Assembly (NCBI GenBank): GCA_016744995.1
Contig: JADGDG010000021.1
Coordinates: forward strand, 1-64,000
Source: Gammaproteobacteria bacterium
GTDB taxonomy: Bacteria > Pseudomonadota > Gammaproteobacteria > GRL18
DNA length: 64,000 bases
Direction: 5' to 3'
Shown here: positions 62,113 through 64,000 of the stretch, in pieces
How the letters are laid out: each line of letters begins with the position of its first letter
Position numbering within the stretch: position 1 is the first letter of the stretch
Translations under genes and position numbers: made by a program
Notes under the pieces: generated by a model
Seen by the model: the letters and a program-made list of their open reading frames with translations, nothing else
What the model was told of the DNA's origin: nothing
The model's database searches: none

Positions 62113-62896
62113 ACTTCCCTTCTCCAGATATCATAAAATAGAATACATAAAACAGAATAAACTAAAAACAGTTAATTGCAATCATTCTAATTAAACAGTG
62201 ATTAATTGTCAATTGTATCTTATATTTTTGGTGAAAAACTGTATTTTGGACATAGTGACACCCCAAGGGAATTTCTTTCAGGGCGTAATTCATTGGTTGT
62301 TCGAAAATCAAAAGAAGGGGGATCGTTCGGACTAAATGCTGAGCCTGTCGATTGCACCCGACACTGGTTCATCTAACTGGGGACGCTTCTAGCCCGTCCA
62401 TGGGTCGCTTGACAGAAAACGTCCGTGTTTTCTGACACCCCAGTTAGACGAACCAGTCTCGCGCACACTCTTCTACCTCAGTTGTCCTCACTGGTGCTGT
62501 CCAAAAGCAAAGAAAAAGCAAGAGCAATCTATCTCAACAAGATATAGTAACGAGGATTTTACTTTTTTCTTTTACTGTAGGCGAGTTATAAAGATTCATA
62601 CTGAGCGTTAAAGTTTCATACTAATATCAGTCACGGCCTATACCTGCCATTGAGCATAATGTATCTTTTGAGTTAAACTCTTAAAAGCAGTAATATCTAA
62701 ATATAAAGATTCTTGGTTTCTACTGTGTGATATTTTAGTTTTATTTTCAAATAATCGAATTTTAGTACCAGGTAATACATAAAATCGAACAAAACTCATT
62801 GAAATTATGTTATTTTTGACTTAATCACCAATAATGTTTAATTGAGAAATACGGAAGCGGATATTGCCAATATGCGTGTTTCTTTAGATTTAACGG
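62113..62896. other. Intergenic region between aas and the first cassette
   Basis: About 780 bp. Positions 62281-62510 are copy B of the long-hairpin repeat. The AT-rich remainder (62511-62896) holds no ORF I can support and no attC partner for the crossover at 62896. It could contain an integron attI or a secondary insertion site; TTTAACGGTTAGA just at the boundary (62889-62901) forms a short inverted pair that resembles a simple integrase-binding site. Confidence 0.5.
62281..62510 (+). repeat. Long-hairpin dispersed repeat, copy B
   Basis: Strongly similar to copy A over its whole length (GTAATTCATTGGTTGTTCGA; TGCTGAGCCTGTCGATTGCA; CAGTTAGACGAACCAGTCTC). The hairpin arms pair with two mismatches. 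The loop differs from A and carries an extra inner stem TCAGAAAAC/GTTTTCTGA-type (CAGAAAACGTCCGTGTTTTCTG). Confidence 0.9.
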
Positions 62897-63546
62897 TTAG
62901 ATTAAAAATATATGAAAAAATATCATTTATCAATGAATGGAAGTAACTTTCTCATTCAAACTGAATCTGGATTGGAAAAACATGGTTTCTTTCAAAACAT
63001 ATTTATTGAGAGTGAAAACTCAGAAAATGCTGAAGATAAAGCGGTTGAAATTATTAGAAATAGCGATATAAGAGAAATAGTTAAAAATAAGCCTGATGAT
63101 CCTCCCATGATTTATCTGGAAGAAATAACAGAATTAGAAAATTTTGATGGAGTAGAGCAGCTTATTCAAGGTAGAAGCTTTTATTTGGAAAGCAAAGAAG
63201 AAGAACTATCTGAATCTGAACTCAAGGAGATTGATTGCAAATTGCTTGAAAATATTACTTTTCAATGGAGAAAAGTTGCAATGGTTGTAGCAACAACCAT
63301 GATTGACTTCAAAGATGATTTTACAGACATCTCCGATTCTTTTTTTTCAGAGAGAGTAAAAATGCTTGCCGAGCAAGGTATTATAGAATCACAAGGTGAC
63401 TTAGATTATATGAGATATAGCGAAGTACGAAAAACACAATATATTGATTCTAAAAAAAAATGATCTAACCAGTGCGCGCTGATGGAAGAGAAAAGCTTTG
63501 CTTGAAAAAATCTCAAGCAAAGCTTTTCTCTCCACAGACGCAGTCG
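62897..63546 (+). mobile_element. Integron-type gene cassette 1
   Basis: The segment starts with TTAGAT after a G (crossover between 62896 and 62897), contains a single ORF (62912-63463) with little non-coding DNA, and ends within the attC-like site at 63463-63552. The R'' box ATCTAAC is exactly complementary to the GTTAGAT at the left boundary, which would form R' in the circular cassette. This reciprocal match is the hallmark of a cassette. Confidence 0.75.
62912..63463 (+). CDS. Cassette-borne protein with DUF3658-like C-terminus
   Basis: A 183-residue soluble acidic protein. The N-terminal half (YHLSMNGSNFLIQTE, HGFFQNIFIESENSENAEDKAVEIIRN) is a small alpha/beta domain. The C-terminal half (WRKVAMVVATTMIDFKDDFTDISDSFFSERVKMLAEQG, then GDLDYMRYSEVR; residues about 120-178) resembles the DUF3658 pattern; that assignment is from memory. 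No signal peptide or membrane segment. Its stop codon overlaps the first base of the attC R'' box and its ATG is 15 bp from the cassette boundary, as usual for integron cassettes. Possible roles such as immunity or phage defence are guesses. Confidence 0.75.
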   Translation: MKKYHLSMNGSNFLIQTESGLEKHGFFQNIFIESENSENAEDKAVEIIRNSDIREIVKNKPDDPPMIYLEEITELENFDGVEQLIQGRSFYLESKEEELSESELKEIDCKLLENITFQWRKVAMVVATTMIDFKDDFTDISDSFFSERVKMLAEQGIIESQGDLDYMRYSEVRKTQYIDSKKK

Positions 63547-63552
63547 TTATGG
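63463..63552 (+). other. attC-like integron recombination site
   Basis: R'' ATCTAAC (63463-63469) and R' GTTATGG (63546-63552) flank an imperfect inverted repeat: AGTGCGCGCTG (63471-63481) pairs with CAGACGCAGT (63535-63544) with unpaired bases in the left arm, as in L''/L'. The centre is a long variable stem, AGAAAAGCTTTGCTTGA (63489-63505) with TCAAGCAAAGCTTTTCT (63513-63529). The size of 90 bp is within the attC range. Confidence 0.75.
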
Positions 63553-63564
63553 AATCTACAACCA

Positions 63565-64000
63565 ATGGATATTTATAAAATATATGATGATGGTATTATT
63601 GGCATTGTAGATATTGAAAAGTATAAAACATTTGTTCACAAAAATTGGGAATATGACCAATTAATTGATCATTTCAAAGTCCAAATGGCATCTATGTCAC
63701 TTCAAATTTGGGGTACAGGACATGAAGGTATTTGGAATGTTGGCTTGCAATACAATGATGACTTGCCAGCCTTTTTTAGAAAATTTACTGGTGGAATTTC
63801 TGTTGGAGAATCAGGTTTATTCATAACTACGTATTCTGAATTATCATCTGTAGCGATGTTTAGAGATGAAATACTACCTCATGAAGACTCTGTTGAAAAT
63901 TTGATTTCTATTGAGCCTGGAAATTATAAGATCATTGTTTCACAAATATTTGATCCTGAAAGTGAAAAATCATATGAAGAAAATTTGCTTCATTTCATTG
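63565..64000 (+). CDS. Second cassette ORF, truncated by the window edge
   Basis: Open from ATG 63565 to the last base (145 codons, no stop). It reads MDIYKIYDDGIIGIVDIEKY at the start, with KNWEYDQLIDHF, SLQIWGTGHEGIWNVG and a region rich in acidic residues. It begins 19 bp after the attC R' box. I do not recognise the family. It has no signal peptide, and is AT-rich like the first cassette. Confidence 0.7.
   Translation, partial: MDIYKIYDDGIIGIVDIEKYKTFVHKNWEYDQLIDHFKVQMASMSLQIWGTGHEGIWNVGLQYNDDLPAFFRKFTGGISVGESGLFITTYSELSSVAMFRDEILPHEDSVENLISIEPGNYKIIVSQIFDPESEKSYEENLLHFI

Follow-up and report, generated by a model that had tools for sequence, protein, structure and literature searches.

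The right edge of the window (the whole stretch analyzed here, the first 64,000 of the 67,496 bases of contig C33, with a further 3.5 kb of sequence to its right) raises the question of how integron-type cassettes came to lie where no integrase gene adjoins them. The initial annotation had offered three answers: a cluster lacking an integrase, a cassette inserted at an unrelated secondary site, or the distal end of an array. The full contig favors the first, with at least three cassettes (1, 2 and 3) stacked in one direction behind an attI-type site; the secondary site and the distal end are both disfavored, and the proximal end of an array is read instead, because positions 62797 to 62896 constitute an attI-type site with 12 strong copies. 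A cluster of attC sites lacking an integron-integrase is known as a CALIN (IntegronFinder, PMC9024848), and the array has the at least two attC sites expected of one (attC1 and attC2, plus a half site at C33:66124), with no integron-integrase nearby. IntegronFinder, whose detection of attI is limited to class 1 integrons (PMC9024848), would class it as a CALIN. Comparisons below are with a genus set of 16 genomes, in which G000 denotes the genome under study.

The lack of a neighboring integrase extends to the genome as assembled. No match to the integron integrase over the TIGR02249 or PRK15417 cutoff was found in the assembly, which is approximately 96% complete in 65 contigs and from which an intI gene could thus be missed. 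Together with the second attC described below, this bears out the initial view of integron-type cassettes without a neighboring integrase, and the locus is not a complete integron with an integron-integrase gene beside attI. Six relatives carry IntI over the TIGR02249 cutoff (intact genes of the genus lie, for example, on G012:C105 and G004:C219), and the sequence upstream of their intact intI genes differs from the attI-type repeat. None of the dozen or so attI copies in the genome under study adjoins an intact intI. Remnants of intI, divergent and upstream, are present at two of the 22 attI copies examined, on C56 and G012:C83. Tyrosine recombinases at C56 were considered as intI and rejected, being below the cutoffs; one of them (2203-2955) adjoins a transposase-like open reading frame. 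A 53-aa minus-strand open reading frame in the attI repeat was also rejected as an intI remnant, and matches no Pfam family.

The head of the array, at 62797 to 62896 on the plus strand, ends in the inverted core boxes ATTTAAC and GTTAGAT, with the presumed crossover between 62896 and 62897. The sequence up to 62896 is part of a repeat, and a profile built on the final 100 bases of that repeat defines a family of approximately 100 bp; it detects 12 strong copies in the genome under study, and 11 of the 16 genus genomes contain matches. Alignment of the copies holds as far as TTTAAC(T/G)G^TT, beyond which they run into different genes, most of which start within about 30 bp, such that most copies are followed by a different short gene or short operon. 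Among 33 copies, most of the junctions read G^TTR at one shared position. Behind attI, the R'/R'' boxes agree fully with those of a downstream attC on C33, C22 and C7; C43 shows a single mismatch. Because the copies align to the crossover and then diverge, and because R' and R'' match at some of them, the repeat at 62797 to 62896 probably functions as attI, as judged from its sequence, its junctions and the intI remnants adjoining two copies. Several copies (C61a, C61b, C17 and C35) are without a clear attC partner or GTT box, and for ten other copies the gene that comes first has no close counterpart in the remaining 15 genomes of the genus. A subset of copies shares a further upstream part, represented here by 62638 to 62796 on the plus strand, which is a possible promoter region, and where a promoter scan gave nothing above chance. 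Among relatives the 5' flank of aas varies, and no clean empty site was seen there. We note that an IS91-like element with a tyrosine recombinase (G000:C56:1-3232; L027) seems to begin directly at an attI junction, G^TTGAAC, and that the sequence at this junction, GTTGAACAAAACCGCTT, also follows an attI copy in G004:C124 (L118). The literature yielded no paper on orphan attI sites with the terms tried.

This repeated head weighs against the insertion of cassettes by an IntI encoded elsewhere into a secondary, non-attI chromosomal site, which would give a CALIN without attI. Such an event would account for an array with no adjoining intI, and off-target insertion is listed, together with intI loss and rearrangement, among the CALIN origins proposed by Cury et al. 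(as cited in PMC8618304); we nonetheless regard it as unlikely here, as the left flank belongs to a family of 12 copies that ends at the crossover, with intI remnants beside two copies. In this instance the attI head favors loss of intI, or duplication of attI.

A further alternative is that the 100-bp repeat is not attI: it could be a mobile promoter, or the terminus of some other mobile element, lying in front of cassettes and other genes by coincidence. The copies are indeed many and dispersed, some have neither GTT nor attC, and several are accompanied by a palindromic repeat; however, the constancy of the G^TTR junction across the 33 copies, the R'/R'' matches at four loci and the intI remnants at two make this explanation quite improbable. 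The palindromic repeat itself, at 62290 to 62530 on the plus strand upstream of the C33 attI, has 46 matches in the genome. It lies within 0.9 kb upstream of the attI copies on C33, C22, C43, C17 and C35, always in the same orientation, for which simple arithmetic gives a chance expectation of about 0.05, although some of the five may stem from a shared duplication. The palindrome ends in sequences similar to R boxes (ATCTAAC/GTTAGAC) yet lacks the bulges of attC. Its link to the cassette array is tentative.

Cassette 1 (62897-63546, plus strand) extends from its R' sequence TTAGAT (62897-62902) to the G of its attC, and contains an open reading frame (62912-63463) for a 183-aa protein with a DUF3658 domain (PF12395, 40.7 bits against a cutoff of 23.3) of unknown function, of which no relative was found in viral contigs. 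The imperfect palindrome attC1 (63463-63552, plus strand) has R'' ATCTAAC at 63463-63469 and R' GTTATGG at 63546-63552, and the long-range complementarity originally noted between TTAGAT and ATCTAA is present as described, in GTTAGAT (62896-62902) and the R'' box. As single-stranded DNA attC1 folds with a z of about -8 relative to shuffles, and it ranks first in the window in a score of arm pairing and R boxes, at 8.0. The mean best score of shuffled windows is 7.65, and since these score about as high the data internal to the window are suggestive, not decisive; the crude scan for R boxes plus arms gives many false attC matches among the loci, and alone, in the window, is not significant. A search of the window against Rfam gave no match.

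Three observations from beyond the window settle the identification of attC1. Firstly, a second attC (attC2), predicted to follow on rightward extension with an R'' of CCATAAC, was found at C33:64060-64135 with CCCTAAC, a match at six of seven positions. Secondly, contig G007:C199 of a related genome holds cassette 1 at 95% identity behind a different attC-like palindrome, and the homology there sets in precisely at G^TTAGAT and stops at GCAGTCG^TTA. Such exact G^TT ends are the way an integrase moves cassettes, and cassette 1 is therefore a mobile cassette, a G^TT-ended unit occupying more than one array context. Thirdly, related attC sites occur in 14 of the 16 genus genomes (by a profile search whose training set included some of these sites, and whose weakest matches may be chance), and in an alignment of 11 related sequences the stem covaries: both partners vary in nine of its pairs, and 92.6% of cells are paired, versus 36-47% when slid. 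The reading of attC1 as a common terminator hairpin or a dispersed palindrome, its TTAGAT match arising by chance, as a strong palindrome with an arm score within that of the shuffles could by itself suggest, can be dismissed given the exact ends of cassette 1 in two arrays, the covarying genus stem with its R boxes, the second attC, and the lack of a terminator call at this site.

Cassette 2 runs on the plus strand from 63547 to C33:64129 (63547-64000 within the window), and its open reading frame, starting at 63565 and encoding 166 aa, matched no family; attC2 is its attC. The further cassettes anticipated to the right are represented by cassette 3, past the window edge, whose R' sequence GTTAAGC is matched at seven of seven positions by R'' GCTTAAC at C33:66124, which we read as a truncated attC with its 5' half alone remaining. 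It encodes a SmaI-family endonuclease on the plus strand (PF17411, 269.6 bits, E 3e-80), an adjoining N6/N4 DNA methylase on the minus strand (PF01555, 189.5 bits) and a third, 109-aa open reading frame. The predicted endonuclease and adjacent methyltransferase, on opposite strands, are those of a SmaI type II restriction-modification system (PF17411 plus PF01555), from which the arrangement here differs in being integron cassette cargo and in including the third frame. No solved homologue of the SmaI-type protein was found by sequence. An 80% identical relative of this cassette is present in the genome of an endosymbiont of the tubeworm Lamellibrachia anaximandri (a MAG, contig L091), in which the third frame is conserved and the unit is followed by what reads as an intact attC, TGCTAAC...GTTAGCT. 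The gene after that attC resembles, by eye, the gene that comes first after the attI copy on C7 (L024:13084-14139).

To the right of the half site lies a gene for a 193-aa protein (L023:4409-4990) with a weak PADLOC match (PDC-S64, E 1.5e-6). Directly after a cassette open reading frame, Rfam identifies a group II intron domain V on the minus strand (C33:67005-67074; L023:5005-5074), and the contig ends about 400 bases beyond it. In G007:C199 (L049), group II intron-like 3' ends can be seen by eye twice after cassette open reading frames, in the position otherwise taken by the R'' box of attC (...CTAA followed by TCGGGTAGCC); Rfam calls the C33 example alone.

We conclude that the C33 array is very probably the attI-proximal end of an integron cassette array from which the integrase gene has been lost, and the best reading is that it is one of several integrase-less integron remnants, each of attI and cassettes, in this genome. 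IntI, whether its gene was still there at the time or it acted in trans, presumably made the insertions, and would have used the folded bottom strand of attC to recombine circular cassettes into the attI-type site, so that cassette 1 (DUF3658), cassette 2 (unknown) and cassette 3 (the SmaI-type endonuclease, methyltransferase and third frame) came to be stacked in one direction. A group II intron would have entered the right end later, and the attI copies may have spread by duplication or transposition. Counting against this explanation are the traces of intI at only two of 22 attI copies, the differing sequences upstream of relatives' IntI, the several copies with no clear attC partner or GTT box, and the incompleteness of the assembly. 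A tentative alternative, possible though doubtful, is a distributed integron, in which the dozen or so stand-alone attI sites have spread so that many chromosomal locations could receive cassettes, and express them, through one integrase supplied in trans; these sites would possibly be part of a unit with the palindromic repeat.

The array resembles other CALINs in its attC sites, its one-way cassettes and its lack of a nearby intI, but differs in having at its head a recognizable attI-type site, of which the genome contains about a dozen copies. As in sedentary chromosomal integrons, it is chromosomal, has attC sites related across the genus and carries mostly unknown cargo, whereas it is short, with no intact integrase in the assembly and several loci in place of one large array. 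CALINs are common, yet few descriptions exist of attI sites other than those of class 1 integrons, so that how a CALIN arose can seldom be told. With the head of an integrase-less array that is recognizable, repeated and shared across the genus, both its origin and any use of these sites in trans become testable. The SmaI-type restriction-modification cassette is an instance of defense cargo, present in two different bacteria. As cassettes, those of the array are of an ordinary kind; what is unusual is the dispersal of the attI sites.
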